Positions 12,683 through 40,567 of a DNA stretch of 64,000 bases are shown in pieces. The DNA comes from Pyrinomonadaceae bacterium. Its GTDB lineage: Bacteria; Acidobacteriota; Blastocatellia; Pyrinomonadales; Pyrinomonadaceae. Within the stretch, counting starts at the first letter, position 1; the number at the start of each line of letters is the position of its first letter. Under the pieces are notes generated by a model. The model was not told the origin of the DNA. It saw nothing but the letters and a program-made list of their open reading frames with translations, and made no database searches. Position numbers and translations under genes: made by a program. The stretch lies in assembly GCA_017983495.1 (NCBI GenBank), contig JAGOBH010000005.1, positions 1-64,000 of the forward strand, given 5' to 3'.

Positions 12683-12793
12683 ACAAGGCAAGAGAATCGT
12701 TCGCTTTTTTGTGGAGAATATCTCGACGCGTTCGTTCAGGAAACTGCTATATTATCGCTTAACGATGCATGCGGCTGACGGCTTTGTTGACTC

Positions 12794-12882: not shown

Positions 12883-13341
12883 ATGAAAATGGCGAATACG
12901 TATTCAAATTTGTTCTACCACGTCGTGTTTAGCACCAGAGGTCGAAAGGATCTCATCAGCCAGGACATCGAAGCCCGAGTTTGGGCGTACATCGGCGGCG
13001 TTGCGAGATTACACGGGTTGATCGCAATTCAGGTCGGCGGGATTGAAAATCACATTCACGTCCTGATACTGGCAAAGCCGAAGATTGCTCCGAGTCAGAT
13101 CGTTCAATGGCTAAAGGGCGAGTCTTCCAGATGGATACACGGGACTTTTCCAGAGTTGCGATCGTTTGAGTGGCAAGACGGTTACGGGATATTCAGTGTT
13201 AGCAAGTCGGCTGTTCGAGAGGTTGTTGATTATATCAAGAACCAACGTGAGCACCATAAGGAGCAAACGTTCGAGGACGAATATCTCTCGATGTTAAGAT
13301 TAAATGGAATCGATTACGACGAGCGATACGTACTTGATTGA
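12883..13341 (+). CDS. REP-associated / IS200-like Y1 transposase
   Basis: Small HUH single-strand transposase of the IS200/IS605 TnpA clan, 152 residues. The N-terminus (YSNLFYHVVFSTRGRKDLI) is the clan's first strand, and GIENHIHVLILAKP holds the HUH-type metal motif (HIHV). The catalytic Tyr is expected in the QDGYGIFSVSKSAV helix (about residue 104), followed by VVDYIKNQREHH. Length and context, a single copy inside several REP palindromes with no TnpB, fit the RAYT group that disperses REP sequences. The start is ATG at 12883 or 12889; neither has a strong ribosome binding site, and the upstream REP hairpin abuts the start. Confidence 0.92.
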   Translation: MKMANTYSNLFYHVVFSTRGRKDLISQDIEARVWAYIGGVARLHGLIAIQVGGIENHIHVLILAKPKIAPSQIVQWLKGESSRWIHGTFPELRSFEWQDGYGIFSVSKSAVREVVDYIKNQREHHKEQTFEDEYLSMLRLNGIDYDERYVLD

Positions 13342-13405: not shown

Positions 13406-13410
13406 TAAAT

Positions 13411-13435
13411 TCACTGGACCGCTACGCGGCCAAAA
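13411..13435 (+). repeat. outer REP copy, right
   Basis: Exact direct repeat of 12658-12682. The similarity decays but continues for about 10 further bases. Confidence 0.85.
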
Positions 13436-13580
13436 GCAGGGCATAATAAGGGTCCACAACGGCAATGTTATGGCCCGAGATAGGTAGGCGCGTTTAATGA
13501 CCGACCGAATAGTAACGTGGGGCGGTGACAAAATTATTTATTTCACCGGAAGTTGTTAAAAATAAATCAACGGAGGATGT

Positions 13581-22487: not shown

Positions 22488-23816
22488 ATGCCTAGCTCTT
22501 TTCATAAATATATGACCCAACCAGAAACCAAGTCCACTCTTTCAGAGGCAGTCCGCAAGCATAAAGAATTTCTTTTCCCGGCCGTTGCCACCTACTATCA
22601 GGAGCCGGTCGCGCTCGTAAAGGGCGAGGGCGAATACGTCTGGGACGATCAGGGCAACAAGTACCTCGATTGTTTCGGCGGTGTGCTGACCGTCAGCGTC
22701 GGACACGCAAATCCGCGCATTAACGAATCGGTGCTTGCACAAAACCAAACGATCCAGCACACCTCTGCTCTCTACGCCAATCCGAACCAGTCGAATTTGG
22801 CGGAAAAGCTCGCCGAGATCACGCCGGGCAGACTCAAGAAATCGTTCTTTACCTCAAGCGGTACCGAGGCCGACGACACGGCCCAAATGGCGGCTAAGAT
22901 CGCCACCGGGCGGCACGAGGTCGTCGTGCTGCGGCACAGCTATTCGGGACGTTCGGCGACGGCTCTGTCGTCGACCGGCCATTCGAACTGGCGCCCGTTG
23001 CCGGCTCAGGTCGCGGGCATCGTCCACGCACCGGCTCCGTACTGCTACCGCTGCCCGTTCAAGCTCGAATATCCGTCGTGTGAGATGGCATGTGCCAACG
23101 ACATCGAGGAACTGATCCAGACGACGACGACCGGCGAGATCGCGGCGTTCATGGCCGAGCCGATCCTAGGCGTTGGCGGATTTATCGTGCCGCCGCCCGA
23201 GTATTTTCAGATCGCGTACGACATCGCACGCCGTCACGGCGGCCTGTGCATCGCCGACGAAGTGCAGACCGCATGGGGCCGCACGGGCGACAAATGGTTC
23301 GGCATCGAACACTGGAACGTCGAGCCCGATATCATCACGTCTGCCAAGGGAATGGCAAACGGCGTGCCAATCGGCTGGACGATCGCGACACCTGAGGTCG
23401 CCGACAAATTCCCGGGTTTGACCTTTGCCACGTTTGGCGGTAACCCGGTCTCGACCGCCGCTGCACTCGCCGTCATCAAGATGATCGAGGACGACGACCT
23501 CCGCACAAATTGCCGCGTCGTCGGCGACTATTTCCGCGGCAGGCTTGAGGAACTTAAGGAAAAGTACCCCGTCATCGGCGACGTCCGCGGCATGGGGCTG
23601 ATGCAGGGCATCGAACTCGTGCGTGACCGCAAGACCAAGGAACCCGCTCCGCAAGCTGTCCTGACCGTCTTCGAAGAGACCAAACGCCAGGGCGTCCTCA
23701 TCGGCAAAGGCGGCCTCTACGGCAACGTCATCCGCACGGGAATGATGCTCAATTCGACTAAGGACAACGTCGACGAACTGATCAGGGCACTCGATGCCGG
23801 CTTAGCGTTGTGTTAA
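22488..23816 (+). CDS. class III aminotransferase, probable beta-alanine aminotransferase
   Basis: PLP enzyme of 442 residues (alanine-glyoxylate / omega-amino acid group). Motifs seen are FGGVLTVSVGHANP, FFTSSGTEADDTAQMAAK, EPILGVGGFIVPP, LCIADEVQTAWGRTG (PLP Asp), IITSAKGMANGVPIG (Schiff-base Lys), TFGGNPVSTAAAL and RGMGLMQGIELV. The pyrimidine-degradation genes further along the same strand suggest it takes beta-alanine or 3-aminoisobutyrate to the semialdehyde; that is inference from context. The start could also be Met9 (22512); GAGGTGG lies too far upstream (over 20 bases) to settle it. A paralogue's last 43 codons survive at 25547, on the far side of a serine hydrolase gene. Confidence 0.88.
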   Translation: MPSSFHKYMTQPETKSTLSEAVRKHKEFLFPAVATYYQEPVALVKGEGEYVWDDQGNKYLDCFGGVLTVSVGHANPRINESVLAQNQTIQHTSALYANPNQSNLAEKLAEITPGRLKKSFFTSSGTEADDTAQMAAKIATGRHEVVVLRHSYSGRSATALSSTGHSNWRPLPAQVAGIVHAPAPYCYRCPFKLEYPSCEMACANDIEELIQTTTTGEIAAFMAEPILGVGGFIVPPPEYFQIAYDIARRHGGLCIADEVQTAWGRTGDKWFGIEHWNVEPDIITSAKGMANGVPIGWTIATPEVADKFPGLTFATFGGNPVSTAAALAVIKMIEDDDLRTNCRVVGDYFRGRLEELKEKYPVIGDVRGMGLMQGIELVRDRKTKEPAPQAVLTVFEETKRQGVLIGKGGLYGNVIRTGMMLNSTKDNVDELIRALDAGLALC

Positions 23817-23825
23817 GAGAAGAAA

Positions 23826-23896
23826 TTCACCACAGAGGCACAGAGAGCACAGAGGTCAGTGAGAAATTTCCTCTGTGTTCTCTGTGTACTCGGTGG
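23826..23896 (+). repeat. CACAGAG palindrome, copy 1, ending before a start codon
   Basis: Left arm 23826-23855 pairs with right arm 23870-23896 (about 22 of 27). The right arm ends GGTGG, 9 bases before the ATG at 23906, and may provide its ribosome binding site. Confidence 0.85.
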
Positions 23897-23905
23897 CTAA
23901 TTCTT

Positions 23906-25543
23906 ATGAAAATTCCAACTTTTCTTATTTTATTTCTGCTTTTTTCGGTTTCCTTTGGTCAGATTCCTGATAAAACGAAAGTGATCTCCGGCACGGAGCG
24001 GGCGTTTGATAAAGCGTCGAAAGCCATAGCGATGCCGGCTCCGGGCTGTGCGGTCGGCGTTTCGCTGAATGGTGAATCTGTTTTCGAAAAGGCATTTGGC
24101 CTCGCGGAGATGGAGCACAATATTGCGAACACTCCGCTGACGATCTTTGAATCGGGTTCGGTAGCAAAGCAATTTACCGCGGCTGCCCTTGTCCTGCTGC
24201 AGCAGGACGGCAAGCTCGACCTTGATGACCCGGTTCGAAAGTACATACCCGAGCTGCCGGATTATGGGTCGCCATTGACGATCAGACATATGCTCAATCA
24301 CGCAGCAGGCTTACGTGATTGGGGAGCGGTGATGTCGCTGACGGGTGCCGGCCGCGGCGACCGCGTGATCGGTCAGGATCTCGCGTTCGATGTGATGACT
24401 AGTCAGAAGGCTCTTGATTTTACACCCGGAGCCGAATATTCGTATTCGAACAGCGGCTACAATCTGGCGGCGGTGATCATCGAACGCGTATCTCAAAAGA
24501 AATTTCCCGAATTTGTCGCCGAACGATTGTTCAAACCGCTCGGGATGACAAACAGCTCATGGCGTGACGATTATCAACGGATCGTGCCGGGCAGAGCATT
24601 GGCGTATTCGCGGCAAGGTGCGAAAGCACCGTGGCGGCTGGATATGCCGTTTATGAATGTTTACGGAAATGGCGGCATGCTGACGACCGTCGGCGATTGG
24701 CTCAAGTGGAATGCGATGCTCGATACACGCTCGATGGGAGCATCGCTCGTTGACGAACTCGAAACACAAGGCGTGCTGAATGACGGGCGAAAGATACCGT
24801 ACGCACTCGGACTAAGGGTAAGCAAATATCGGAATCTGCCGGAAGTGGCGCATGGCGGTTCGACGGCCGGCTATCAGACGTTCCTCGTTCGATATCCGAA
24901 AGCCAAGGTCTCAGTCGCGGTGATGTGCAATGGCACGTCGCCGTCTGCCACATCGATCGCCCGCAGCGTGACCGACGAGATCTTCGGGCCGTTTCCGCCG
25001 CCGGTTCAGCCGGAAAGCGTGAATGTCCCCGTCGAACAGCTCAATAAGTTCGTAGGGCTTTGGCGTGACGAAAAGACCCATCTTGACGCCCGAACGACGA
25101 TCGACGGCGGTACGCTTCGGGTTGACGGACAGCCGTTGCGACCCGTTGCCGATGGGGTCTTCGCGATAGGCCAAGCGAAATTTACGTTCAAGATCGGCAG
25201 TAGCGGCAAGCCTTCGTATCTTGAGGTAGCCGCGGATGGTGACGTCTCCCGGTTCATTCTTGAGACCGAGTGGAAACCGACGCCCGCCGAGCTCGCCGAA
25301 TTTTCAGGACAGTGGTACAGCAATGAGGCACAGGCGGGCGTATCGTTTGTGGTCGAGGGCGACAAGGCCCATATCTTTCAGCGGCCAAAGACCAAACTGC
25401 CGCTCACGCCGCTTTACAGAGACCATTTCTCGGCCGGCGATCGGGTCATTTGGTTTACCCGAAACACAAAAGGCAAGATCGAAAGGATGCACGTCGGAGC
25501 GTCGCGAATGCGAGATATGCCATTTGAACGTGTCCGCAAATAG
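23906..25543 (+). CDS. exported serine hydrolase (beta-lactamase class C family)
   Basis: A 545-residue secreted serine hydrolase. The start at 23906 gives a signal peptide (MKIPTFLILFLLFSVSFGQ); the open frame runs further upstream only through the repeat. The active-site SxxK is SVAK in ESGSVAKQFTAAAL (about residue 85), YSNSGYNLAA is the YxN motif, and HGGSTAGYQTFLVRYP takes the KTG-box position (HGGST). A C-terminal lipocalin-like or DUF3471-type region of about 170 residues follows. Such proteins are usually D-aminopeptidases or esterases rather than true beta-lactamases. It is wedged between the aminotransferase and a remnant of an aminotransferase, with 3 bases to the remnant. Confidence 0.9.
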   Translation: MKIPTFLILFLLFSVSFGQIPDKTKVISGTERAFDKASKAIAMPAPGCAVGVSLNGESVFEKAFGLAEMEHNIANTPLTIFESGSVAKQFTAAALVLLQQDGKLDLDDPVRKYIPELPDYGSPLTIRHMLNHAAGLRDWGAVMSLTGAGRGDRVIGQDLAFDVMTSQKALDFTPGAEYSYSNSGYNLAAVIIERVSQKKFPEFVAERLFKPLGMTNSSWRDDYQRIVPGRALAYSRQGAKAPWRLDMPFMNVYGNGGMLTTVGDWLKWNAMLDTRSMGASLVDELETQGVLNDGRKIPYALGLRVSKYRNLPEVAHGGSTAGYQTFLVRYPKAKVSVAVMCNGTSPSATSIARSVTDEIFGPFPPPVQPESVNVPVEQLNKFVGLWRDEKTHLDARTTIDGGTLRVDGQPLRPVADGVFAIGQAKFTFKIGSSGKPSYLEVAADGDVSRFILETEWKPTPAELAEFSGQWYSNEAQAGVSFVVEGDKAHIFQRPKTKLPLTPLYRDHFSAGDRVIWFTRNTKGKIERMHVGASRMRDMPFERVRK

Positions 25544-25676: not shown

Positions 25677-25714
25677 TTGACTAGGTTGGCCAAGTAGGCT
25701 ATTGTGGCCAAGTA
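25677..25714 (+). promoter_or_regulatory. promoter and likely operator of the toxin-antitoxin pair
   Basis: TTGACT (25677-25682) and TATTGT (25700-25705) are 17 bases apart, a good sigma70-type promoter. TGGCCAAGTA occurs twice, 18 bases apart (25687-25696 and 25705-25714), over the spacer and start region, as expected for autoregulation. The predicted transcript starts at or next to the ATG, so it may be leaderless. Confidence 0.6.
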
Positions 25715-26040
25715 TGAGTGTTAGAGCATCAAAACCTAGAGTTTCGAGAGGCGCAAACATCGCCGAGTTGAAAAATAACCTTAGTGTTTTTCTCAAAGGT
25801 GTAAAAAATGGTGGCGAAGTAATAGTCAGTGAGCGAAATGTTCCGTTTGCTAAGATCGTTCCGTTTGTTGAAATAGAAGAATTCGAAACTGAAGAAGAAA
25901 AACTGGTCGCAGAGGGAATTCTGGCTCCGCCGACTAATGTTGGATCCTTGCCGGATTCGTTCTGGGACGACGATGATCTTCCAAATGTGCCGTTAGAAAA
26001 AATCCTTGAAGTTATCAGGGAGGAACGGGATGAGCGCTAA
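25714..26040 (+). CDS. antitoxin, Phd/YefM-like (prevent-host-death family)
   Basis: 108-residue DNA-binding antitoxin. The N-terminal Phd/YefM fold is visible in GANIAELKNNLSVFLKGVKNG and VIVSERNVPFAKIVP (about residues 15-55). The acidic C-terminal tail (SFWDDDDLPNVPLEKILEVI) would wrap the toxin. ATG at 25714 is chosen because the upstream extension overlaps the promoter. The gene overlaps the toxin start by 11 bases, the usual coupling in type II modules. AT-richer than its neighbours. Confidence 0.88.
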   Translation: MSVRASKPRVSRGANIAELKNNLSVFLKGVKNGGEVIVSERNVPFAKIVPFVEIEEFETEEEKLVAEGILAPPTNVGSLPDSFWDDDDLPNVPLEKILEVIREERDER

Positions 26041-26470
26041 AGTTGCGTTTTGGGACACCAGTGCGATCATTCCACTTTACTGTAATCAGGTGATGTCGTC
26101 TGAATCTCGTCGTATAAGGCGGAGGTTCAAGCAGCCCGTCGTTTGGTGGGGAACCCACGTCGAAATACATAGCGGCATAAATCGCCTTTTACGTGACGGA
26201 GTTTTGACCGAAAGGCAGTTTAACAGAGCATTAGAGAAATGGAATAACCTACGGTCATTGGCCTTTGTCGTATTGCCTGAGGACAATGTTTTGAAACTTG
26301 CAATTTCGTTGACCAATAAACACAATATTAGGGCTTTGGATGCCTTTCAACTTGCCGCCGCGCTTAGCTGGTGTCGTGAGCACACGCGAAACCGACAGTT
26401 TGTATGTGCTGACAAGCGATTAGCGGATGCGGCGAGCGACGCGGGATTTGATGTGGTTGAACTGTTGTAG
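26030..26470 (+). CDS. PIN-domain toxin, VapC-like ribonuclease
   Basis: A 146-residue PIN ribonuclease. The first acidic residue is in FWDTSAIIPLY (Asp9), a conserved Glu lies in WWGTHVEIHSGINRLL, RALDAFQLAAAL holds the next catalytic Asp, and FVCADKRLADAA provides the last. GGAGG lies 7 bases before the ATG at 26030, which decides this start over the in-frame TTG at 26006. It would cleave RNA when free of the antitoxin encoded just upstream. The module lies right after the aminotransferase remnant, at the boundary of an AT-rich accessory stretch. Confidence 0.9.
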   Translation: MSAKVAFWDTSAIIPLYCNQVMSSESRRIRRRFKQPVVWWGTHVEIHSGINRLLRDGVLTERQFNRALEKWNNLRSLAFVVLPEDNVLKLAISLTNKHNIRALDAFQLAAALSWCREHTRNRQFVCADKRLADAASDAGFDVVELL

Positions 26471-27651: not shown

Positions 27652-27710
27652 TAAGGGCTAGGACTAGGACAACGACATTCCACTAACGCTAAAAGAAAGG
27701 TATTAAGATA

Positions 27711-27830
27711 ATGAAAACATTGATCAAAAGCGGACGTGTCGTCACTGCTGTTGACGACTATCGGGCGGATATCTTTATTGATAGCGAGACGGTGACGACT
27801 ATCGGTGGTGGCGCTGTTGTGCGACTGAAG
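27711..27830 (+). pseudogene. 5' remnant of a dihydropyrimidinase gene
   Basis: Starts ATGAAAACATTGATC and agrees with the first ~105 bases of the intact dihydropyrimidinase (28381) at about 90 percent of positions, through the residues ETVTTIG. Homology then ends. The frame runs on through a CACAGAG repeat arm to a TGA at 27885-27887 (58 codons). A purine-rich AAAGAAAGG lies about 10 bases upstream, so a short peptide might still be made. Confidence 0.88.
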
Positions 27831-27837
27831 AATAAAA

Positions 27838-27968
27838 TTCACCACAGAGGCACGGAGGGCACAGAGAGATTTAGAAAGATCCTATGAGTGACCGATTGGT
27901 GGTTCGAATGAGGTTATCTAACAATTTTAGTTTTTCTTTCTCGGTGTCCTCTGTGACTCTGTGGTGAA
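27838..27968 (+). repeat. CACAGAG palindrome, copy 2, before the GxxExxY gene
   Basis: Left arm 27838-27868 and right arm 27940-27968 (about 25 of 29 pairs), with some 70 bases between. The right arm ends GGTGA, 9 bases before the ATG at 27977. Confidence 0.85.
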
Positions 27969-27976
27969 TCCTTCTT

Positions 27977-28342
27977 ATGAATGACTTAACTGAAAAGATC
28001 ATAAGTTGTGCGATCAAGGTCCACAGAATTCTAGGTCCGGGTTTGCTTGAGAGCGCGTACGAAGTTTGTCTTGTTCACGAATTAAAGAAATCCGGGCTGA
28101 GAGTTGAACGCCAAGTCCCACTGCCGATCGTGTATGACGGCATTGAACTCGATGCGTGCTACCAATTAGATATCGTTGTCGAAGATGTAATAATTCTCGA
28201 ACTGAAATCGGTTGAAAGGATCATGCCGATTCACGAAGCCCAATTGCTGACCTACCTCAAACTTACAAAGAAAAAGCTCGGCTTATTAATCAACTTCAAC
28301 GTAGAATTATTGAAAAACGGCATTAAGAGAAAAGTGATTTGA
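27977..28342 (+). CDS. GxxExxY protein (PDDEXK-like)
   Basis: A 121-residue protein of the GxxExxY family, which has a PDDEXK-like nuclease fold. The naming motif is GLLESAY near residue 23. The nuclease-like signature is YQLDIVVEDVIILELKSVE (Asp, Glu-Leu-Lys), and IHEAQLLTYLKLTKKKLGLLIN is the usual C-terminal helix and strand. Its role in bacteria is unknown. The gene is boxed by CACAGAG repeat arms (27838-27968 upstream, 28346-28374 downstream), and the whole lies between a 5' fragment and the intact copy of dihydropyrimidinase. It is therefore probably a passenger of the repeat, or drives its spread. Confidence 0.9.
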   Translation: MNDLTEKIISCAIKVHRILGPGLLESAYEVCLVHELKKSGLRVERQVPLPIVYDGIELDACYQLDIVVEDVIILELKSVERIMPIHEAQLLTYLKLTKKKLGLLINFNVELLKNGIKRKVI

Positions 28343-28345
28343 AAA

Positions 28346-28374
28346 CTCTGTGTTCTCTGTGCCTCTGTGGTGAA
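28346..28374 (+). repeat. CACAGAG repeat, right arm only, before dihydropyrimidinase
   Basis: Matches the right arm at 27940-27968. It ends GGTGA, 7 bases before the ATG at 28381, and lies just after the GxxExxY stop. Confidence 0.85.
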
Positions 28375-28380
28375 GCTATT

Positions 28381-29760
28381 ATGAAAACACTAATCAAAAA
28401 CGGACGCGTCGTTACTGCGGTGGACGACTATCGGGCGGATATTTTTATTGATGGCGAGACGGTGACGACTATCGGCAAGCGGCTGGATATGGAGGCGGAT
28501 GTTGTGCTGGACGCGTCGGGGAGGCTGGTGATCCCGGGCGGGATCGATCCGCATACGCATATGGAACTGCCGTTTGGCGGGACGCATTCGTCCGACGATT
28601 TTTTTACCGGGACGCGGGCGGCGGCGTTTGGGGGGACGACGACGATCATTGATTTTGCGGTGCAGACGAAGGGCGAATCGATGACCGCGGGCGTCGATGC
28701 GTGGCACAATAAGGCCGAGGGCAAGACGGCGATCGATTACGGGTTTCATCTCATCACGACCGAGTTTGAGGACGGCGATGAGCAAGAAATGTACAAGCTG
28801 ATGGACGAGGGCATCACTTCGTTCAAGCTGTTTATGGCGTATCCGGGCGTGTTTTTGGCCGACGACGCGACGATCTTTCGGGCGATGTCTGCGGCCGGCC
28901 AACGAGGCGGCCTGATCTGCATGCATGCCGAAAACGGCATCGTCATCAACGAGATCATCAAACGTTTTCTCGCCGACGGACGCACTGCTCCGAAGTATCA
29001 TGCTCTGACGCGTCCAACTATCGCCGAGGCCGAGGGAGTTCATCGCGCGATCGCAATTGCTGAGATGGCCGAATCGCCGGTCTATATCGTTCACCTTTCG
29101 TGTACGGATGCGCTCAATCAAGTGCGACAAGCGAGAGATCGCGGCATTGCGGCGTTTGCGGAGACTTGTCCGCAGTATCTTTTCCACTCGATCGACGATT
29201 ACGGCGACGGATGGGAAGGTGCGAAATACGTGATGACGCCGCCGCTTCGCGAAAAGCATAACTGTGCCGAGCTCTGGAAAGGCCTCAAGATGGACGATCT
29301 CCAAGTCATCTCGACCGACCATTGCCCGTTCTGTATGAAAGAGCAAAAGGAACTCGGCGTAAATGATTTTTCAAAGATCCCAAACGGAGCTCCAGGCGTC
29401 GAGAACCGTATGAACCTCATCTACAACGGCGGCGTGGTCGAGCAGCGAATTTCTTTGAATCGCTTTGTCGAACTAACCTCAACGGCTGCCGCGAAGATGT
29501 TTGGCCTGTTCCCGAAGAAAGGCACAATTGCCGTCGGTTCGGATGCCGACATTGTTATTTTCAATCCCGACACCGAACACACCTTCGGCGTCGAAGCCGA
29601 GCACATGAATGTCGATTACTCTTCTTATGAAGGTGTGAAAGTAAAAGGCAAGGTCGAAACCGTGCTATCCCGTGGAAAGGTCGTCATCCAAAACGGCGAG
29701 CATCAAGGGAAGGCCGGTGACGGGCAATTTCTGAAACGAGGCGAGTGTGTGAAGGTTTAG
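28381..29760 (+). CDS. dihydropyrimidinase (D-hydantoinase)
   Basis: Zinc hydrolase opening dihydrouracil or dihydrothymine to the N-carbamoyl beta-amino acid, the second step of reductive pyrimidine breakdown. 459 residues. Metal and active-site features are GGIDPHTHMELPF (HxH), ITSFKLFMAYPG (the Lys that is carboxylated), MHAENG and VHLSC (zinc His), and STDHCPF (catalytic Asp). The start at 28381 follows a GGTGA repeat arm; the open frame upstream (from 28339) is repeat sequence. Partial copies flank it: 5' at 27711, and internal plus 3' at 31209. Companions are the aminotransferase (22488), ureidopropionase (57344) and PreTA (59029, 61449). Confidence 0.93.
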   Translation: MKTLIKNGRVVTAVDDYRADIFIDGETVTTIGKRLDMEADVVLDASGRLVIPGGIDPHTHMELPFGGTHSSDDFFTGTRAAAFGGTTTIIDFAVQTKGESMTAGVDAWHNKAEGKTAIDYGFHLITTEFEDGDEQEMYKLMDEGITSFKLFMAYPGVFLADDATIFRAMSAAGQRGGLICMHAENGIVINEIIKRFLADGRTAPKYHALTRPTIAEAEGVHRAIAIAEMAESPVYIVHLSCTDALNQVRQARDRGIAAFAETCPQYLFHSIDDYGDGWEGAKYVMTPPLREKHNCAELWKGLKMDDLQVISTDHCPFCMKEQKELGVNDFSKIPNGAPGVENRMNLIYNGGVVEQRISLNRFVELTSTAAAKMFGLFPKKGTIAVGSDADIVIFNPDTEHTFGVEAEHMNVDYSSYEGVKVKGKVETVLSRGKVVIQNGEHQGKAGDGQFLKRGECVKV

Positions 29761-31208: not shown

Positions 31209-31483
31209 GCGGTGATGCGTTCGACCATTGCTGAGGGCGTTCATCGCGCGATCGTCATCGCCGAGATGGCTGAGTCGCCGGTTTATATTGTTCGTCTTTT
31301 TTCGTCTACGGCGTCGATGCCGAGCATTTGAATGTCGATTACTCTTTCTACGAAGGCGCGAAGGTAAAAGGCAAGGTCGAAACCGTCCTCTCACGTGGCC
31401 GAGTTGTTTTCCAAAATGGCGAACACACCGGCAAACAGGGCGATGGGCAGTTCATCAAAAGGGGAACCTGTGTTAACTTGTAG
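31209..31483 (+). pseudogene. internal and 3' remnant of a dihydropyrimidinase gene
   Basis: Two blocks of a dihydropyrimidinase joined by an internal deletion of roughly 490 bases. The first encodes GVHRAIVIAEMAESPVYIV. The second runs from GVDAEHLNVDY to the natural end (QFIKRGTCVNL and TAG at 31481), with about 45 of 57 residues matching the intact copy. It begins a few bases after the serine hydrolase stop. The well-kept last 57 codons argue for recent loss of function or acquisition from a diverged homologue. Confidence 0.88.
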
Positions 31484-31507: not shown

Positions 31508-34222
31508 ATGGGCGAAAGTATAGAGATCGGCTCGTCGATCGGGAATTACCGTATTGTCTCCAAGATCGGCGCGGGTGGAATGGGCGAAGTTTACAAGGCC
31601 CACGATTCGCGGCTTGACCGTGAAGTGGCGATCAAGGTGCTGCCTTCGGAGATGTCGAGCGACGAAGACCGTCTGCGGCGTTTCGAACAGGAAGCAAAGG
31701 CCACATCCGCGCTAAATCATCCCAACATCCTTACCGTCTACGACATCGGCGAACACGATGGCTCGCCGTTCATCGTCGCCGAGTTGCTTGACGGCGAAGA
31801 GCTTCGCGAGCGTCTTGATGAAGGCTCAATTCCACTCAGAAAAGTAACCGAATACGCCCAGCAGATCGTCAGCGGGCTTTCGGCGGCGCACGAAAAGGGC
31901 ATCGTTCACCGCGATCTCAAGCCGGAAAACCTTTTTATTACAAAAGACGACCGGGTTAAGATCCTTGATTTTGGCCTGGCTAAACTGTCAGAACCGCCTG
32001 CGTCAGCGGGCGGCACGAGCGGCAACGAAGACGCAACGCGAAAAGCACTCACAAACCCCGGTGTAGTAATGGGCACGGTCGGCTATATGTCGCCCGAGCA
32101 GGTTCGTGGGCAGATGACCGATCATCGCTCGGATATCTTTTCGTTTGGATTGATCCTTTACGAAATGATCACGGGACGGCGGGCGTTTCAGGAGGAATCG
32201 CTGGCTGAGACGATGTCGGCGATCGTCAAAGAAGAGCCGCCGGAAATGACGGAATCCAACCCGAACATCAGCCCGTCACTTGAACGGATCGTCAGGCGGT
32301 GTCTGGAAAAGAAACCCGAACGCCGTTTTCAATCGACGGCCGACCTTGGGTTTGCTCTTGAGTCTTTGTCGGCTCCGACGAGTTCGTCAGGAGCGAATCT
32401 TACTGAAACTGTGCGGACGCTTGATTACGCTGCTAAGACGACACGCAGCCGCTGGCGTGACCGCATCTGGATGATTGCGGTAGGCGTGTTGGCATTGATT
32501 GCTCTCGCCCTCGGCGTAGCGTACCTTCGGCGGCCGGTGTCAGAAGCAGCAACGGTGTTGCGGCTATCGGTCAATCCGCCGGACAAAACTGAGAGATTGA
32601 CTTCCCTCTCAGTATCCCCGGATGGGCGCACCCTGGCTTTTGTCGCCACCGTCGAAGGAAAAACGCAGATCTGGGTACGCCCTTTGAGGGAATCGACTCC
32701 CAAGCCACTCGCGGGGACGGAAAACGCGAGTTTGCCGTTCTGGTCGCCGGATAGTCAGTTTATCGGTTTCTTTGCGGCAGGCAAGCTGCAAAAAATATCG
32801 CTCTCCGGCGGAACGCCCGCTCCGCTGGCCGAGATTCAACAATTTACCGGTGGAACCTGGAACCGTAACGGGGTGATCCTGTTCGGCACCGGCAATGCAG
32901 GTATTCAAAGCATATCAGCCAACGGCGGGCCGGTCAGTTCAGTTACGTCAGTTAACACTTCACAGGGAGAAGTCCGGCATCGCACTCCGTTCCTGCTGCC
33001 TAATGGCCGTCAGTTTCTCTTTCACGTCCAGCACAGTGATCCAAACAAACAAGGGATCTACCTGGCCTCACTGGAAGGCGGCGAGGCGAAACAGTTGGTC
33101 GCTAATGATGCCGGAGCCTTCCAGGCAGAAGAGGATCCGGCCACACCCGGTGCAGGCTATCTGATCTTTGTCGAGCAAGGAGCATTGATGGCACAGCGTT
33201 TTGACTTCGGCCGGAATGAGTTGAGCGGTGAGCCGGTACGGCTGGTGGAGCAGGTGCAAACCGGATTGCGAGGATTTGTTGGGCAATTCTCACTGGCCGG
33301 AAATGTGCTGGCGGCAATGGAAGGAACGACCCGCGAACAACTTACCTGGGTTGATCGAACCGGGAAGAAAGTGGGAACGGTTGGCCCTGTGGGGGCTTAC
33401 GGCATTCGCGACCTGTCACCGGATGGTCAGCGACTGGCGGTCACACGCTATGATTCGAAGCTCGGCACAGGCGACATCTGGTTGTTTGATCTGGTCCGCG
33501 GAACTGAAACGCGGCTGACGGTTGATCCCGCAGATGATAGTTTTCCCGAATGGTCGCCCGATGGTAGCCGCATCGTCTTTTCGTCCACTCGCAAAGGAAT
33601 GTCCGGTCTTTACTTGAAAGACGCTACCGGCGCAGGTCAGGAAGAATTGTTGTTCGAGTCAGCGAACGGCAAGGTTCCCCTGCAATGGTCACCGGATGGT
33701 CGCTTCATTCTGTATCGTGAGTCTGATCCGCAGACGAGTCAGGATCTATGGATGCTGCCGCTGGAAGGGGAGCGCAAGCCCTGGCCCTGGCTGAAGACGA
33801 AATTTACAGAATCATCTGGTAGCGGCATTTCTCCCGATGGCAAATGGATAGGGTACTCTTCTGATGAATCAGGACGCGGCGAAGTTTACATTCAGGCTTT
33901 TGAACCGGGCGTTCCGGCATCCGGCTCCAGATGGCCGATCTCTATTGGCGGCGGTCAGCAAACCAAATGGCGCAGCGATGGGCGCGGAATGTATTATCAC
34001 CTCAGCGGTAAAATGATGGAAGTGGATGTCAGCCTCGGCACAAAGGTCGAAGCGGGACTGCCCAGAGAACTCTTTGATTCGCGCACCATCGGCGCAGACC
34101 TGACCCGTTCGTGGGTCATGACTAAAGATGAACAGCGCTTTATGTTCGTAACGAACGCAGACGCCGCCGGCGTCCCGCAGTTTTCCGTCGTGTTGAACTG
34201 GATGGCGGAGCTCAAGAAATGA
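31508..34222 (+). CDS. serine/threonine kinase with PD40 sensor, kinase 1
   Basis: Membrane-bound Hanks-type kinase of 904 residues. The kinase domain (about 12-275) has GAGGMGEVYKA (P-loop), AIKVLP (Lys), IVHRDLKPENLF (HRD) and DFGLAKL (DFG), with MSPEQ in the APE position. One transmembrane helix (about 322-344, IWMIAVGVLALIALALGVAYL) leads to an extracytoplasmic beta-propeller with TolB-like PD40 repeats (LSVSPDGRTLAFV, FPEWSPDGSRIVFSS, GISPDGKWIGYSS). The activation segment carries an in-frame palindrome (31994-32013) shared with kinase 2. It is the first gene of an operon; its stop overlaps the next start (ATGA). The signal sensed is unknown. Confidence 0.93.
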   Translation: MGESIEIGSSIGNYRIVSKIGAGGMGEVYKAHDSRLDREVAIKVLPSEMSSDEDRLRRFEQEAKATSALNHPNILTVYDIGEHDGSPFIVAELLDGEELRERLDEGSIPLRKVTEYAQQIVSGLSAAHEKGIVHRDLKPENLFITKDDRVKILDFGLAKLSEPPASAGGTSGNEDATRKALTNPGVVMGTVGYMSPEQVRGQMTDHRSDIFSFGLILYEMITGRRAFQEESLAETMSAIVKEEPPEMTESNPNISPSLERIVRRCLEKKPERRFQSTADLGFALESLSAPTSSSGANLTETVRTLDYAAKTTRSRWRDRIWMIAVGVLALIALALGVAYLRRPVSEAATVLRLSVNPPDKTERLTSLSVSPDGRTLAFVATVEGKTQIWVRPLRESTPKPLAGTENASLPFWSPDSQFIGFFAAGKLQKISLSGGTPAPLAEIQQFTGGTWNRNGVILFGTGNAGIQSISANGGPVSSVTSVNTSQGEVRHRTPFLLPNGRQFLFHVQHSDPNKQGIYLASLEGGEAKQLVANDAGAFQAEEDPATPGAGYLIFVEQGALMAQRFDFGRNELSGEPVRLVEQVQTGLRGFVGQFSLAGNVLAAMEGTTREQLTWVDRTGKKVGTVGPVGAYGIRDLSPDGQRLAVTRYDSKLGTGDIWLFDLVRGTETRLTVDPADDSFPEWSPDGSRIVFSSTRKGMSGLYLKDATGAGQEELLFESANGKVPLQWSPDGRFILYRESDPQTSQDLWMLPLEGERKPWPWLKTKFTESSGSGISPDGKWIGYSSDESGRGEVYIQAFEPGVPASGSRWPISIGGGQQTKWRSDGRGMYYHLSGKMMEVDVSLGTKVEAGLPRELFDSRTIGADLTRSWVMTKDEQRFMFVTNADAAGVPQFSVVLNWMAELKK
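31994..32013. repeat. REP-like palindrome in kinase 1 activation loop
   Basis: 20-base near-palindrome with CCGCC/GGCGG ends, preceded by TGTCAGAA. It is identical at 34699-34718 and encodes PPASAGG just after DFGLAKL. Confidence 0.7.
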
Positions 34223-36852
34223 CACTAACTGAAGGCACGAAACTAGGAAGATACGAGATACGCTCGCTCATCGGCGTTGGCGGAATGGGTGAGGTTTACC
34301 GGGCAAGCGACCCGAAGATCGGGCGTGATGTGGCGATCAAGGTACTGCCGGCGGATTTTTCGGCGGACAAGGAACGCGTCGCGCGATTTGAGCAGGAAGC
34401 TCAGGCCGCCGGGGCGTTGAATCACCCGAATATTCTGGCGATCTACGATGTTGATACGCAGGATGATGTTCTGTATGTCGTATCCGAATTGCTCGAAGGC
34501 GAGGAACTACGCCAGCGGCTCGATGAAGGGCCGATCCCTCTGCGAAAGGTGGCGGAGTATGCTCAGCAGATCGTTAGCGGTTTGTCAGCGGCGCATGAGA
34601 AAGGAATAGTCCATCGCGATCTGAAGCCGGAAAATCTTTTCATAACGAAAGACGACCGTGTAAAGATACTTGATTTTGGACTGGCCAAATTGTCAGAACC
34701 GCCTGCGTCAGCGGGCGGCACGAGCGGTAATGAAGACGCAACGCGAAAAGCACTAACAAACCCCGGTGTCGTAATGGGCACGGTCGGTTATATGTCGCCG
34801 GAGCAGGTTCGCGGGGCTCCGACCGATCACCGCTCCGACATCTTTTCGTTCGGCTTGATCCTTTACGAAATGATCGCGGGCAAGCGGGCGTTTCAGCACG
34901 AAACGATGGCTGAGACAATGTCGGCAATTCTCAAAGAAGAACCCGAGGAGATCACCGAATCAAATCCGAACATCAGCCCGTCGCTTGAGCGAATTGTGAG
35001 GCGATGTCTGGAAAAGAAACCGGACAGGCGTTTTCAATCTACGCATGATCTTGGTTTTGCTCTAGAGTCGCTGTCGGCACCGACGAGTTCGTCGGGGAGC
35101 AATATGACAGCGGCGATCAGTGCGATCGGTACTGAAACAGATAGATCAGGTTGGAAAGCTCGGATTCCCTGGATCGCCGCCGGGGCGTTGGCTCTGATGT
35201 TGATCTCATTTGGAGCGTGGACATTGCTCAGACCGGCACCGGCACTGCCGCCATTTGTCTCGCTCGATGTGGCGGCTCCGGCGGGGTGGACGACTGCACC
35301 GACCAGCGCTCTTTCGCCGGACGGTTCGCGGCTGGCTTTTACGGCTGAACAAGAGAAGGGTAAGCCTCATCTGTGGCTGCGGATATTGGCGACCGGCGAG
35401 ACTCAGATGGTCGCCGATTCAGAAGATGCGTCCGCGCCGTTCTGGTCGCCGGATGGGGCCGAAATAGCCTATTTTACGAATGAGCGTCTTCGAGCGGTCA
35501 ACCTCGCGACCGGGCGGTCGCGAGTGATCTGCGATGTCACCGGGCGCCGGAAGGCAGGCACATGGAATGCCGGCGGCGTGATCATTTTTGCGACCGAAAA
35601 TGGCGTGCCGCTGCGACGCGTTAACGCCGATGGCAGATCACTCCCCTCGGACATGCCGCAGAAAGAAGGATTCAGGCCATTCTTTTTACCGGACGGACGA
35701 CATTTCCTTTTTGGCCACTCACAGTTAGGAGGTATTTCTGTCGGCGATCTTGAGTCGGGTGAGGTCAAAGAGATCCCGGCCGAAGCGGCCGAGCCTAAAT
35801 ACGCCGACGGCTATCTATTTTTTAACTCTCCCGGCGGGTTGATGGCCCAAGCCTTTAACCCCGAGTCATTCAAGCTTTCGGGCGAGCCGATAAAGATCGC
35901 GGAAATTTGCTGCCTCAATTCTTACACCGGCACGAATTTTAGCGTGGCCGCAAACGGGCTGATAGCATTTCGAAGGCAGATCGTGGAACAGCGTGAGAAC
36001 GCCTGGTATTCGCGCGACGGCACGCGTACAGGCCTAGGTGATGCCGGCAATCGGCCCGCCAATCCGTTATTCTCTCCTGACGATTTAATGATAGCTCTGG
36101 GCCGGGACGGAGACATCTTGCTGTTTGACGTTGCTCGCGGCACGGCGCGTATGTTTGCCTCGGGAAAGCCGGACGGGTTGGTTATGCCAATGTGGAAATC
36201 CGACGGTAGTGCGGTCCTATTTATGAAGGCCCGTGTGGGCGTGGTAGAAAAGGCTCTGAACGGTGGACCCGAACGAACGGTCATTGAACCAAAGGGTTGG
36301 GTGACCGAGATGATCAGTGACGGCCGGGCCCTTGGTTTCAAGGTAAGGGAAGGGAACCGAGACATCTTCATCCAGAACACAACCGGTGACGAAACGTATT
36401 TCGCCCAGTCGCCGGGGAACGAAACACAGCCCGCACTATCGCCCGATGAGCGTTGGCTGGCATACGTTTATTCTGAGAGCACGGGCGATGAGAAGATCAT
36501 CTTCATTGAAGCCTTTCCGAATGGCGGGCAGAAAATACGCATTTCGGGCGACTTTGGCGGCGTCCAGCCGCGATGGCGCCGTGACGGCCGCGAGCTTTAT
36601 TTTGTTGCCCCGGATGGCAGCCTGATGGCGGTCACGGTCGAGGAAACGGGCGGCGTACTCAAGGTCGGGACGCCAAAGGCACTCTTCAAAACCGCGATCG
36701 AGCCTGGTAGCGGCATTGGAACCCGGGCGAGTTATGACGCAACCCGCGACGGATCGCGTTTCTTTGTGACTGAACAAAAGAAAGACCCCGGAGCCGACAC
36801 CCAGCCAGTGACGGTACTCGTAAACTGGCAAAGCATTGTGAAAAAGAGATGA
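34219..36852 (+). CDS. serine/threonine kinase with PD40 sensor, kinase 2
   Basis: 877 residues, same plan as kinase 1: GVGGMGEVYRA, AIKVLP, IVHRDLKPENLF, DFGLAKL, a transmembrane helix at about 315-337 (IPWIAAGALALMLISFGAWTLL) and a PD40 propeller (ALSPDGSRLAFTAEQ, ALSPDERWLAYVYSE). It overlaps kinase 1 by 4 bases. The first ~130 codons are almost identical in DNA to kinase 3, while residues around the activation loop match kinase 1, including the palindrome. The propeller halves differ strongly. That is a mosaic produced by conversion among paralogues. Confidence 0.93.
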   Translation: MTLTEGTKLGRYEIRSLIGVGGMGEVYRASDPKIGRDVAIKVLPADFSADKERVARFEQEAQAAGALNHPNILAIYDVDTQDDVLYVVSELLEGEELRQRLDEGPIPLRKVAEYAQQIVSGLSAAHEKGIVHRDLKPENLFITKDDRVKILDFGLAKLSEPPASAGGTSGNEDATRKALTNPGVVMGTVGYMSPEQVRGAPTDHRSDIFSFGLILYEMIAGKRAFQHETMAETMSAILKEEPEEITESNPNISPSLERIVRRCLEKKPDRRFQSTHDLGFALESLSAPTSSSGSNMTAAISAIGTETDRSGWKARIPWIAAGALALMLISFGAWTLLRPAPALPPFVSLDVAAPAGWTTAPTSALSPDGSRLAFTAEQEKGKPHLWLRILATGETQMVADSEDASAPFWSPDGAEIAYFTNERLRAVNLATGRSRVICDVTGRRKAGTWNAGGVIIFATENGVPLRRVNADGRSLPSDMPQKEGFRPFFLPDGRHFLFGHSQLGGISVGDLESGEVKEIPAEAAEPKYADGYLFFNSPGGLMAQAFNPESFKLSGEPIKIAEICCLNSYTGTNFSVAANGLIAFRRQIVEQRENAWYSRDGTRTGLGDAGNRPANPLFSPDDLMIALGRDGDILLFDVARGTARMFASGKPDGLVMPMWKSDGSAVLFMKARVGVVEKALNGGPERTVIEPKGWVTEMISDGRALGFKVREGNRDIFIQNTTGDETYFAQSPGNETQPALSPDERWLAYVYSESTGDEKIIFIEAFPNGGQKIRISGDFGGVQPRWRRDGRELYFVAPDGSLMAVTVEETGGVLKVGTPKALFKTAIEPGSGIGTRASYDATRDGSRFFVTEQKKDPGADTQPVTVLVNWQSIVKKR
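34699..34718. repeat. REP-like palindrome in kinase 2 activation loop
   Basis: Identical to 31994-32013 and at the same codon position. It is absent from kinase 3, which reads EPKPDAGSS there. Confidence 0.7.
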
Positions 36853-36862
36853 GCAGGGAATT

Positions 36863-37897
36863 ATGAGTTCCGAATCGATCATTACAGACGAATACGCTGA
36901 CTTTATCTCTAAGCTGAAAGCCGATATTGGGCAGACGCAGATCAAGGCGGCACTCGCGGTCAACCGCGAACTCGTCCTGCTTTATTGGCGTATTGGAAAC
37001 GGCATTCTGGCAAAGCAAAAAGAACTCGGCTGGGGTGCCAAGGTCGTCGAGCAAATATCGCTCGATCTGCGTCTGGAGTTTCCGGCGATGAAAGGGTTTT
37101 CGCGGACGAATCTGCTGTATATGCGGCTTTTTGCCGAAGCATATCCTGATGAGGTAATTGTCCAACAAGCTGTTGGACGAATTCCATGGGGCCATATTGT
37201 CCGGATTCTCGATAAGGTAAAAGACCCGGTCGAACGCGAGTTCTACATTACCAAAACCATGGAAAACGGCTGGAGCCGGAATGTTTTGGAGATACAGATC
37301 GAAACAGGCCTGTATCTGCGGCAAGGCAAAGCGATCACGAATTTTGAACTGACTCTGCCAAAACCTCAATCGGATCTCGCTCATCAATTACTGAAAAGCC
37401 CGTACAATTTCGATTTTCTCGGCCTGACGGACGAGGCACATGAGCGTGACATTGAACAGGCGATGATGCGGCATGTGCGAGAATACCTGCTCGAGTTGGG
37501 CGTAGGTTTTGCGTTTGTCGGCAGTCAATATCGGCTGGATGTCGGTGGCGAAGAGTTTTTTGTTGATCAACTCTATTATCATCTCAAACTCCGCTGCTAT
37601 TTCGTTTTGGAGCTGAAAGCGGGTAAATTCAAACCCGAATACCTCGGCAAACTAAACTTCTATCTCTCGGCGATCGACAACCTGTTGCGTGAATCGGGCG
37701 ACAACCTGAGCTTAGGCCTGATCTTGTGTCGAGGGGAAAACAAAACAGTGGCAGAATATGCATTACGTGACATGGCAAAACCGATAGGCATTTCGAGTTT
37801 TGAGCTCACAAAGATCTTGCCGGAGAATTTACGAGGCAATCTGCCGACGATCGAAGAGATCGAAGCCGAGTTGAGATCGGTTAAGATCCGCGAATAA
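36863..37897 (+). CDS. PDDEXK nuclease, YhcG/DUF1016 family
   Basis: A 344-residue protein with the DUF1016 N-terminal region (LYWRIGNGILAKQKELGWG, then LEFPAMKGFSRTNLLYMRLF) and a C-terminal PDDEXK nuclease domain. Its core is GGEEFFVDQLYYHLKLRC (Asp) followed by FVLELKAGKFKPEYLGKL (ExK). Members are linked to restriction, DNA repair or mobile elements; the substrate is not established. It starts 10 bases after kinase 2 and ends 6 bases before kinase 3, so it is read within the kinase operon. It may be an insert between two tandem kinase paralogues, or functionally tied to them. Confidence 0.92.
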   Translation: MSSESIITDEYADFISKLKADIGQTQIKAALAVNRELVLLYWRIGNGILAKQKELGWGAKVVEQISLDLRLEFPAMKGFSRTNLLYMRLFAEAYPDEVIVQQAVGRIPWGHIVRILDKVKDPVEREFYITKTMENGWSRNVLEIQIETGLYLRQGKAITNFELTLPKPQSDLAHQLLKSPYNFDFLGLTDEAHERDIEQAMMRHVREYLLELGVGFAFVGSQYRLDVGGEEFFVDQLYYHLKLRCYFVLELKAGKFKPEYLGKLNFYLSAIDNLLRESGDNLSLGLILCRGENKTVAEYALRDMAKPIGISSFELTKILPENLRGNLPTIEEIEAELRSVKIRE

Positions 37898-37903
37898 AAA
37901 GTA

Positions 37904-40567
37904 ATGACATTGACCGAAGGGACAAAACTAGGAAGATACGAGATCCGCACGCTGATCGGCGTGGGCGGAATGGGTGAGGTTTACCGGGCGAGCGACCCGA
38001 AGATCGGGCGTGATGTGGCGATCAAGGTCTTGCCGGCCGATTTTTCGGCGGACAAGGAACGCGTCGCACGGTTTGAACAGGAAGCTCAGGCCGCCGGTGC
38101 TTTGAATCATCCGAATATTATCGCGGTCTATGATGTCGATACTCAGGACGACGTTCTTTATGTTGTGTCCGAGCTACTCGAAGGCGAAGAACTGCGCGAG
38201 CGTCTTGACCAAGGTTCGATACCGCTCAGAAAAGTCACCGAATACGCGCAGCAGATCGTCAGCGGGCTCTCCGCCGCGCATGAGAAAGGTATTGTTCACC
38301 GCGATCTGAAGCCGGAAAATCTTTTCATCACAAACGACGATCGCGTGAAGATCCTCGATTTCGGACTGGCTAAACTGCGTGAGCCAAAACCCGATGCAGG
38401 CAGCTCTGAGGATGCAACGCGTAAAGCGATCACAAATCCGGGCGTCGTTATGGGAACGGTGGGCTATATGTCGCCTGAGCAGGTTCGCGGCCACGCGACC
38501 GATCACCGGTCCGACATTTTTTCGTTTGGGCTGATCTTGTACGAGATGATCACGGGCAAGCGGGCGTTTCAGCACGAAACCATGGCTGAAACGATGTCGG
38601 CAATTCTCAAGGAAGAACCCGAGGAGATCACCGAATCCAACCCAAACATCAGTCCCGCATTAGAGCGGATAGTTCGGCGGTGTCTGGAAAAGAAGCCGGA
38701 AAGGCGGTTTCACTCGGCGCATGATCTTGGTTTTGCGCTTGAGTCACTGTCCGCTCCGACAAGTTCCTCGGGAACGAATATGACAACGGCGGTGAGTCCG
38801 ATTGGTCCTGAAAATGACAGATCGCCTTGGCCCATTCGGATTCTGGCAGCCGCTGCTTTACTGCTGCTGATCGGCTGCGTTGTGCTCGGCGTGATGTATG
38901 TCCGAAGGCCGGTGCCGGATGAGCGGCTTGTGAGCTTTGTTGTACCACCGCCTGAACCCGCATCTAATGTCGGCTCGCCGGCCATTTCTCCCGATGGACG
39001 CACGATCGCATTTAATATGGTGGTCGACGGCAAGTTGCATCTCTACATTCGTGAACTTGGGTCGTTTACAGAGCGTCGCCTTAACGGGACTGACGAGGCT
39101 CAGGCCGCGTTTTGGTCGCCTGACAGCAGATCTATTGCATTTACTGCGAACGATAAACTAAAAAAGGTCGATGTCGGCGGCGGGGCTGTTCAAGTAATTT
39201 GCGATGCTCCAAAGGGATTTTCGGGTGCCTGGAGCCGTGATGGCGTGATCGTATTCGGCAGTATCGATCAGGGTATTCGGCGCGTGTCCGCGTCCGGAGG
39301 CGAGGTTTCCGAACTACTGCCTCTTGATGAGTCGCGTAAGGAAACGCGGCATCTATTTCCCCGCTTTCTCCCCGACGGGCGTCACTTCTTTTACAGGAGC
39401 CACAACAGCAGCCCCACCGATCCACCGGAAATATTTATCGCCTCGATCGACGGGAAAGAGCGAAAGTCGCTATTCAAGAATTCTTCGGACGTTTACTATA
39501 TCGAGCCGGGATATTTGCTGTTCGCCCGTGATACAACCGTCATGGCACAGCCGTTTGACGCCTCAAAACTCCAGTTCACCGGCGATCCCGTTCCAGTCCT
39601 CGAGAATGTGGCAATGCTAACTTCCACCGGCCGCTCGCAATTCTCGGTTTCCGAGAACGGGACATTGGTCTATAAGACGGGGGGCGGCACTGTTAACCAG
39701 TTGAGATGGTTCGACCGTCAGGGGAAGGAGATCACAAAGGTGGGCCCGCCGGGCGAATATTCTGATGTGGTCCTTTCGCCTGACGGCAAGCGGGCCGCGG
39801 CTGAGCGTATCGATAACAGCAATCGTGATATTTGGATGATCGACCTGGAACGCGGCTTGCCGACGAGATTTACATTTGGTGCCCTCCGGGAAGACGACCC
39901 GGCGTGGTCGCCCGACGGCACGTATCTTGTTTTTAGTTCGAACGGATATGGCGACAAGCAGTCGATCTTTCGAAAACTAGCAAACGGTGCTGGGAATGAT
40001 GAGTTGTTGAGCGATGCCGTTAGCGTTCAGACAAGCGGGATGGATTGGTCGCCAGACGGCAAGAATATCCTGTTTGCAAACATTGGGGAGAAGTCGGGCA
40101 ACGATATCTGGATATTGCCGATGGCAGGCGAGGCAAAACCATATCCGCTGCTAAAGTCTGAATTTAATGAAAGCCAGGCACATTTTTCGCCTGACGGCCG
40201 TTACTTTGCCTATGTGTCCAATGAGAGCGGCCGCGAGGAGGTCTACATTCAAAGCTTCCCGGTCGGCACTGGCAAATGGCGAGTCTCGACCAACGGCGGT
40301 TGGCAGCCCAAATGGCGGCGTGACGGCAAGGAGCTTTATTACGAGGCCATCGACAAGAAACTGATGGCGGTCCCTGTAAAACTGGATGGAAGCGTCGAGA
40401 TCGGATCGGCGACCGCTTTGTTTCAAACTGAGATAACCGTCGGCAGCCCTAATCGATACGCCGTCACTGCTGACGGCCAGCGGTTCCTGATCAACTCACC
40501 GCTCCAATCGGGACAGGAGTCGCCGTTCAACGTGATCCTGAACTGGACCTCGACGCTGAAGAAGTGA
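37904..40567 (+). CDS. serine/threonine kinase with PD40 sensor, kinase 3
   Basis: 887 residues. The kinase core (GVGGMGEVYRA, AIKVLP, IVHRDLKPENLF, DFGLAKL, MSPEQVRG) is nearly identical to kinase 2 at its 5' end. A transmembrane helix (about 308-330, ILAAAALLLLIGCVVLGVMYV) and a diverged PD40 propeller (AISPDGRTIAFNMV, AWSPDGTYLVFSS, HFSPDGRYFAYVSNESG) follow. It lacks the palindrome seen in kinases 1 and 2. It is the last gene of the operon, and a 163-base inverted-repeat element starts right after its stop. Confidence 0.93.
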   Translation: MTLTEGTKLGRYEIRTLIGVGGMGEVYRASDPKIGRDVAIKVLPADFSADKERVARFEQEAQAAGALNHPNIIAVYDVDTQDDVLYVVSELLEGEELRERLDQGSIPLRKVTEYAQQIVSGLSAAHEKGIVHRDLKPENLFITNDDRVKILDFGLAKLREPKPDAGSSEDATRKAITNPGVVMGTVGYMSPEQVRGHATDHRSDIFSFGLILYEMITGKRAFQHETMAETMSAILKEEPEEITESNPNISPALERIVRRCLEKKPERRFHSAHDLGFALESLSAPTSSSGTNMTTAVSPIGPENDRSPWPIRILAAAALLLLIGCVVLGVMYVRRPVPDERLVSFVVPPPEPASNVGSPAISPDGRTIAFNMVVDGKLHLYIRELGSFTERRLNGTDEAQAAFWSPDSRSIAFTANDKLKKVDVGGGAVQVICDAPKGFSGAWSRDGVIVFGSIDQGIRRVSASGGEVSELLPLDESRKETRHLFPRFLPDGRHFFYRSHNSSPTDPPEIFIASIDGKERKSLFKNSSDVYYIEPGYLLFARDTTVMAQPFDASKLQFTGDPVPVLENVAMLTSTGRSQFSVSENGTLVYKTGGGTVNQLRWFDRQGKEITKVGPPGEYSDVVLSPDGKRAAAERIDNSNRDIWMIDLERGLPTRFTFGALREDDPAWSPDGTYLVFSSNGYGDKQSIFRKLANGAGNDELLSDAVSVQTSGMDWSPDGKNILFANIGEKSGNDIWILPMAGEAKPYPLLKSEFNESQAHFSPDGRYFAYVSNESGREEVYIQSFPVGTGKWRVSTNGGWQPKWRRDGKELYYEAIDKKLMAVPVKLDGSVEIGSATALFQTEITVGSPNRYAVTADGQRFLINSPLQSGQESPFNVILNWTSTLKK

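Follow-up and report, generated by a model that had tools for sequence, protein, structure and literature searches.

The window, i.e. the whole stretch of DNA that was analysed, comprises bases 1-64000 of one contig of a 4.01-Mb genome. It contains a small cassette in which a gene for a GxxExxY protein is enclosed by inverted repeat arms, with a complete palindrome upstream of the gene and a further right arm downstream of it; the original prediction had described this arrangement, and it is confirmed by the sequence. The features of the cassette and two solo hairpins of the same arm family located elsewhere in the window are as follows:

27838-27866, + strand: left outer arm with three CACAGAG-type units, TTCACCACAGAGGCACGGAGGGCACAGAG
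27867-27939, no strand assigned: loop of the upstream palindrome, from the sequence and the DNA fold of 27838-27968
27940-27968, - strand: inner right arm, which completes the upstream palindrome, CTCGGTGTCCTCTGTGACTCTGTGGTGAA
27977 (ATG) to 28342 (stop), + strand: GxxExxY gene, 121 amino acids, PD-(D/E)XK (PDDEXK_3) nuclease family, from profiles, alignment and model
28346-28374, - strand: right outer arm, CTCTGTGTTCTCTGTGCCTCTGTGGTGAA, beginning 4 nt after the GxxExxY stop
23826-23898, no strand assigned: solo hairpin of the CACAGAG arm family without a gene; the orthologous site in genome G031 (L190) also carries a hairpin
54497-54594, no strand assigned: solo hairpin upstream of an aldehyde-dehydrogenase-like gene, again of the CACAGAG arm family; the corresponding site in genome G026 (L185) is empty

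At its GGTGA end, the inner right arm is 9 nt away from the start codon of GxxExxY. As single-stranded DNA, the palindrome 27838-27968 is predicted to fold with -29.3 kcal/mol (z -7.1 versus shuffles), and the only Rfam matches to a hairpin were to microRNAs and below threshold. According to the ORF list and Pfam, GxxExxY is the sole ORF between the arms in the window and a DDE transposase gene is absent.

The encoded protein had been judged PDDEXK-like, and its matches to TIGR04256 (158 bits versus a cut-off of 35, 9e-47) and PF13366 (153 bits versus a cut-off of 22, 7e-45; Pfam gives PDDEXK_3 only) bear this out. In an alignment of 52 sequences, the columns E25, Y28, D65, E75, K77, Q89, N106, and F107 are invariant, and E25, D65, E75-x-K77, and Q89 represent the E/D/ExK/Q set of RecB-like PD-(D/E)XK nucleases; that the active site is intact is an observation. 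The AF2 model of the window protein has a pLDDT of 96.9. Foldseek ranked the Holliday-junction resolvase Hjc first, followed by Cas4 and lambda exonuclease, all with E-values above 0.01; VIA-align placed Cas4 (SSO0001) first with a Z of 9.8 and Hjc at 6-7, and PADLOC reported weak matches to Cas4 profiles. Nucleases of the nearest folds (Hjc) act on hairpin- or cruciform-type substrates. For close GxxExxY orthologues dN/dS values of 0.06-0.17 were obtained, and the enzyme is therefore maintained by purifying selection. The GxxExxY family has a name but no assigned function; of the relatives sampled, 73 of 98 possess it, and it occurs in many phyla. It had been remarked at the outset that no described function of GxxExxY together with such repeats was known, and no account of a function or of an association with repeats was found in the searchable open literature, subscription papers and preprints being outside the scope.

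The motif CACAGAG occurs 19 times in the window versus 4.9 expected, a count reached by none of 100 shuffles. Across the source genome, the double-unit arm has 31 matches versus 0 for the reversed pattern, and most of these arms form inverted pairs with a length of 70-160 bp. Arms flank each of the five GxxExxY genes present in this genome and belong to a different family in every case, namely CACAGAG, CGCAGAG, CGCAAAG, a ACAGGGAT-type family, and CGCGAAT/CACGAAT. The CACAGAG arms on which the original prediction was built are present here, but CACAGAG is one class among a family of three-unit repeats. Since the left and right arms of the CACAGAG elements of the source genome are unlike at the linker before the third unit, where one position matches in 0 of 12 elements, the elements appear to be oriented.

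Several arms and hairpins occupy unusual positions. Hairpins of the ACAGGAT, CGCAGAT, and CGCGGAT types are nested inside loops of the CACAGAG family (L032, 1501-1661; L013, 1398-1518; L031, near 1501). In L027 (1456-1530), the first part of an M16-peptidase-like gene contains a lone right arm, from which the hydrophobic stretch of the apparent signal peptide (FFAFLCVLCASVVNL) is translated; here a repeat has apparently been exapted as coding sequence. In the window, the longest ORF of a beta-lactamase-family gene (23810-25543) begins with GTG and runs through a solo hairpin (HHRGTESTE...). Because this reading frame traverses the hairpin, start-site annotation near arms is likely to be wrong, and gene calls can read through arms into their neighbours.

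Upstream of the cassette lies a 98-nt 5' fragment of a dihydropyrimidinase gene (27708-27805), which is 90% identical to 28378-28475. The cassette had been described as placed between this fragment and the intact gene; the fragment is real, but it is not a feature of the cassette, because similar fragments occur in congeners without one. In G026, G027, and G036, 5' fragments are found upstream of intact copies with other DNA between them and no cassette. The 98-bp repeat was also considered as a long target duplication and rejected, as 5' fragments without a cassette are present in G026, G027, G036, and G008 and the left copy has a deletion of its own. Fragments of both the 5' and the 3' end (window 27708-27805 and 31230-31483; L350, L351, L352, and L355) flank or precede the intact gene in the window and in congeners, with varied DNA between them. 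The 5' end of the dihydropyrimidinase gene seems prone to duplication with inserted cargo, which is separate from the cassette.

Whether GxxExxY genes elsewhere are accompanied by arms was analysed both with and without an assumed motif. The motif-based analysis comprised 80 GxxExxY loci from GTDB genomes of the Acidobacteriota, Planctomycetota, Verrucomicrobiota, Myxococcota, Desulfuromonadales, Cloacimonadota, Bacteroidota, Chloroflexota, KSB1, Calditrichaceae, Alpha- and Gammaproteobacteria, and Treponema. Within 250 bp of the genes, the arm density was 5.7 per kb on the left (+ strand, upstream) and 5.6 per kb on the right (- strand, downstream), versus 0.03-0.15 per kb at distances above 500 bp, and almost no reversed pattern was present beside these loci. 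As a loose local-alignment score for inverted arms proved too noisy, shuffle-based and motif-based tests were used instead. In the motif-free test, the inverted flanks beat 300 of 300 dinucleotide shuffles at 129 of 172 GxxExxY genes, and the same test was passed by 1 of 187 control places. The second sample consisted of other GxxExxY copies from 27 non-acidobacterial genomes, and significant inverted arms were detected at 26 of these 43 genes. Significant arms are missing at about a quarter of the 172 genes and at 40% of the 43. The packaging of the gene between arms is a direct observation: GxxExxY occurs in a dozen bacterial phyla or more, and its usual place is between inverted repeats made of short tandem units. 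A lack of enrichment in other genomes, which would have refuted the original prediction, was not encountered: in many phyla the arms show an enrichment of about 50- to 100-fold and have the predicted orientation. The same data dispose of the notion that the gene merely became inserted beside a common intergenic repeat to which it has no link. Arms are indeed common in some genomes, but a strand-specific enrichment of about 50- to 100-fold in many phyla, with 1 of 187 controls passing, refutes this explanation, and we regard it as having practically no chance of being correct.

Among the relatives, CACAGAG arms were found in 53 of 73 genomes with GxxExxY versus 4 of 25 without it (p 9e-7); the relatives are not independent, and p-values for co-occurrence overstate the case. 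Individual genomes, even congeners, range from 0 to 10 GxxExxY genes and from 0 to about 100 arms. The genomes G049, G053, and G064 have arms and no detectable GxxExxY, which requires past loss of the gene or incomplete assembly. A search of phages gave no match, and a search of plasmids gave 8 weak matches.

An enzyme other than GxxExxY, e.g. a RAYT/Y1 transposase, could in principle move the arms and carry GxxExxY as cargo. Y1_Tnp genes are present in 85 of the 98 genomes, 13 matches being found in the source genome, and their number correlates weakly with the number of arms (rho 0.27). However, arms on both sides were detected at 0 of 30 Y1_Tnp genes versus 119 of 172 GxxExxY genes in the same test, CACAGAG arms are absent from 12 of 15 genomes with Y1 but without GxxExxY, and G082 (99 arms) and G046 (40 arms) possess GxxExxY without any Y1 gene. 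Moreover, no other gene was present between the arms in the loci inspected by eye, which did not amount to a systematic scan. Transport by a foreign enzyme, against which the correspondence between arm class and GxxExxY clade also speaks, is accordingly considered very improbable.

The arms have a common layout. In all families an arm consists of three to four tandem units about 9 bp apart, the best self-match shift being 8-10 bp in 190 of 226 arms; unit types beside other GxxExxY genes include CACAGAT, ACAGGAT, CACGAAG, CACCAAG, and TAGGATT. From copy to copy the sequence of the units is conserved whereas variation of the linking bases is nearly random, and the loops are unlike in both sequence and length. 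Mapping of the arm classes onto the protein tree required 22 changes versus 53 with shuffled labels (minimum 47), and the distribution of host genomes on the same tree was random (71 versus 72 with shuffled labels); the arm class tracks the clade of the GxxExxY protein, not the host genome. The gene-free hairpins of one class are most numerous where the nuclease of that class occurs: GAT-type arms have a median of 16.5 per genome in the presence of a GAT-clade protein (18 of 18 genomes), of 1 in genomes having only other GxxExxY proteins, and of 0 in genomes without any (p 2e-9). For GAG-type arms, the GAT-clade protein has no predictive value versus genomes with other GxxExxY proteins (p 0.29). 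Both this grammar and the cognate pairing were observed directly. A homogenisation of the left and right arm within each element was also considered; it was not seen in the source genome and in G043, i.e. in two of four genomes, and it was seen in G005, which mixes sub-families, and weakly in G066.

The original prediction had suggested a possible mobile cassette and had called for a search for empty sites. Such sites were found in congeners for two cassettes and several solo hairpins, and mobility is supported by them as well as by the enrichment, the relocated copies, and the match of arm class and protein clade. For the L005 cassette, which lies upstream of an aspS-like gene, empty sites are present in congeners (seven loci), and the same holds for the L002 cassette and for the solo hairpins. 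In G024 and G036, the left flank of the window cassette runs straight into dihydropyrimidinase and the cassette is absent. Protein pairs with at least 90% identity occupy the same site in 32 of 33 cases, the exception being a pair within one genome that shares one flank; at 80-90% identity both flanks are shared in 59 pairs and neither in 6, and at 70-80% in 46 and 94 pairs, respectively. As flank sharing falls with protein identity, the cassette is inferred from these comparisons to be inherited mostly vertically, with slow and rare relocation. Duplicate cassettes within a genome are represented by L067/L092 (88%) and L137/L199 (92%). In several pairs of relocated copies with 70-92% identity, among them pairs from one and the same genome, the homology ends at or near the arms; in L067/L092 it extends somewhat past the arm edge. 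No target duplications were seen by eye at the sites of the source genome, and the congeners, which are only 75-90% identical, are too divergent to resolve them. In L298/L314, G038 contains an extra insertion of about 33 bp beside the hairpin. This insert consists of one right arm with a 5-bp direct repeat, ATCAC, at its borders and is possibly a one-arm insertion with target duplication.

Cassettes are mostly intergenic and often begin 5-15 nt after the upstream stop codon and end 7-11 nt before the next ATG. This fit, together with the resemblance of the arm end GGTGA to a ribosome-binding site, would suit a domesticated host system in which the hairpins serve the host in mRNA processing, termination, translation start signals or chromosome structure, with GxxExxY as the host nuclease binding or processing them and with mobility as a matter of the past. 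A comparison of G005 and G038, whose flanks are about 95% identical, points the same way, as the orthologous hairpins of the same family have arm units that are 98% identical, with 86% for the loops and 95% for the flanks; the dN/dS values of 0.06-0.17 would also be in keeping with it. We nevertheless consider this interpretation unlikely, although not negligible, because the presence of the elements is patchy even among congeners, many sites are empty, and arm families are swapped and nested in a manner typical of mobile DNA.

Every site examined in G005 and G038 holds a hairpin in both genomes, but swaps of this kind were found at three of them (L287/L325, L291/L319, and L301/L324), where the hairpin family has been exchanged, CACAGAG versus CGCAGAG, over both arms and the loop. 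These exchanges at occupied sites are the best evidence for a homing-like drive, in which a break made by the nuclease in a resident hairpin or at a gene junction is repaired by gene conversion, which copies the element into it, so that elements mainly replace each other at fixed places. The fold matches include the homing endonuclease I-Bth0305I, but this match is weak (E 0.73), and the empty sites and relocated cassettes document arrival at new places; we rate such a mode somewhat lower still than domestication.

The interpretation that we favour, with a probability of roughly 0.7, is that of a small element composed of two inverted arms and one gene for a RecB/Hjc-like PD-(D/E)XK nuclease, the nuclease being the element's own enzyme and the gene-free hairpins being derivatives. 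In this model, each arm would be a recognition array with three to four units spaced by about one helical turn, and the GxxExxY nuclease would recognise its cognate arms. A hairpin or cruciform is envisaged to form from the inverted arms, most likely in single-stranded DNA at replication forks and alternatively in supercoiled DNA, and GxxExxY protomers bound to the tandem units might then cleave the DNA close to the foot of the arms. Host replication and repair could copy the end thus freed or broken into another site, or exchange it with that site, as a rule leaving no visible target duplication. Arm-loop-arm hairpins without a gene would be non-autonomous derivatives, related to the cassettes as REPINs are to RAYTs, and the process would be slow: inheritance is mostly vertical, purifying selection retains the cassettes, and now and then they relocate or pass from one lineage to another. 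That the nuclease acts on its own repeat is an inference supported by the cognate pairing and the intact active site; neither cutting nor movement was witnessed, and cleavage of DNA, the substrate, and the route of copying are all inferred. Because the loops differ between copies, it cannot be seen directly that a unit is copied intact.

The closest known counterparts are the REPIN-RAYT systems or REPtrons (PMC3116915, PMC8049555). In both, small hairpins of inverted repeats are scattered among the genes and have diverse spacers, which for REPINs are described as highly diverse (PMC8049555); in both, a distinct enzyme gene for each repeat family is flanked by its own repeats and co-evolves with them, inheritance is mostly vertical, and genomes that keep the enzyme have more repeats. 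However, GxxExxY is a PD-(D/E)XK nuclease whereas the RAYT is an HUH Y1 transposase (PF01797), and the arms consist of tandem units of about 9 bp (CACAGAG, CACAGAT, CACGAAG, ACAGGAT) instead of the GTAG-tagged short palindromes of REPIN-RAYT repeats (PMC3733652, PMC8266576); in addition, several unlike arm families commonly coexist in one GxxExxY genome. Judged against these definitions, the GxxExxY system would work like a REPtron but is not one, as both defining features, HUH/Y1 and GTAG palindromes, fail. With the MITEs of DDE-type insertion sequences it shares short non-autonomous elements, terminal inverted repeats, and a longer enzyme-coding version, but the GxxExxY cassette has no DDE transposase and no visible target duplication, and it has three-unit arms and a single nuclease gene of about 120 codons. 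Homing endonuclease genes, including those of PD-(D/E)XK types, are likewise free-standing small nuclease genes that may spread by break repair; GxxExxY, in contrast, lacks an intron, an intein or an interrupted target gene and has its own inverted arms and many gene-free hairpins. Hjc, Cas4, and lambda exonuclease are similar in fold and in the RecB-like residues (E, D, ExK, Q), whereas the GxxExxY gene stands alone and mostly inside arms.

On balance, we lean towards regarding these elements as a separate class of mobile DNA, with less assurance than we attach to the element itself: a lone PD-(D/E)XK nuclease, which is not a DDE, HUH, tyrosine or serine recombinase, would recognise three-unit inverted arms and disperse both itself and gene-free hairpins, in many co-existing families, each with its own nuclease; these families would have been spreading at a slow pace across a dozen phyla or more and would be the source of many anonymous intergenic repeats in environmental genomes. 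The newness lies in an unrelated enzyme and an unrelated repeat grammar and not in a proven mechanism; if any repeat with a dedicated nuclease were counted as one kind, the system would be a variant of that kind. The cognate three-unit inverted repeats give GxxExxY a testable role and account for a large class of anonymous intergenic hairpins, and they suggest that REPIN-like systems may have arisen with a non-homologous enzyme.

Apart from the cassette, the window contains an IS200-like Y1 transposase gene (12883-13341; PF01797, 100 bits) flanked by repeats at 12654-12690 and 13407-13443 that contain CCGCTACGCGG; this is apparently an ordinary RAYT/REP locus. A weakly matching Phd/YefM-like antitoxin and PIN-domain toxin pair (25702-26470) is located near the cassette and upstream of a DUF2711 gene. 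At 31508-34222 and, as copies, near 34214-38706, three protein-kinase genes in all stand in tandem; they are paralogues with up to 88% DNA identity, and the first of the three carries PD40 repeats.
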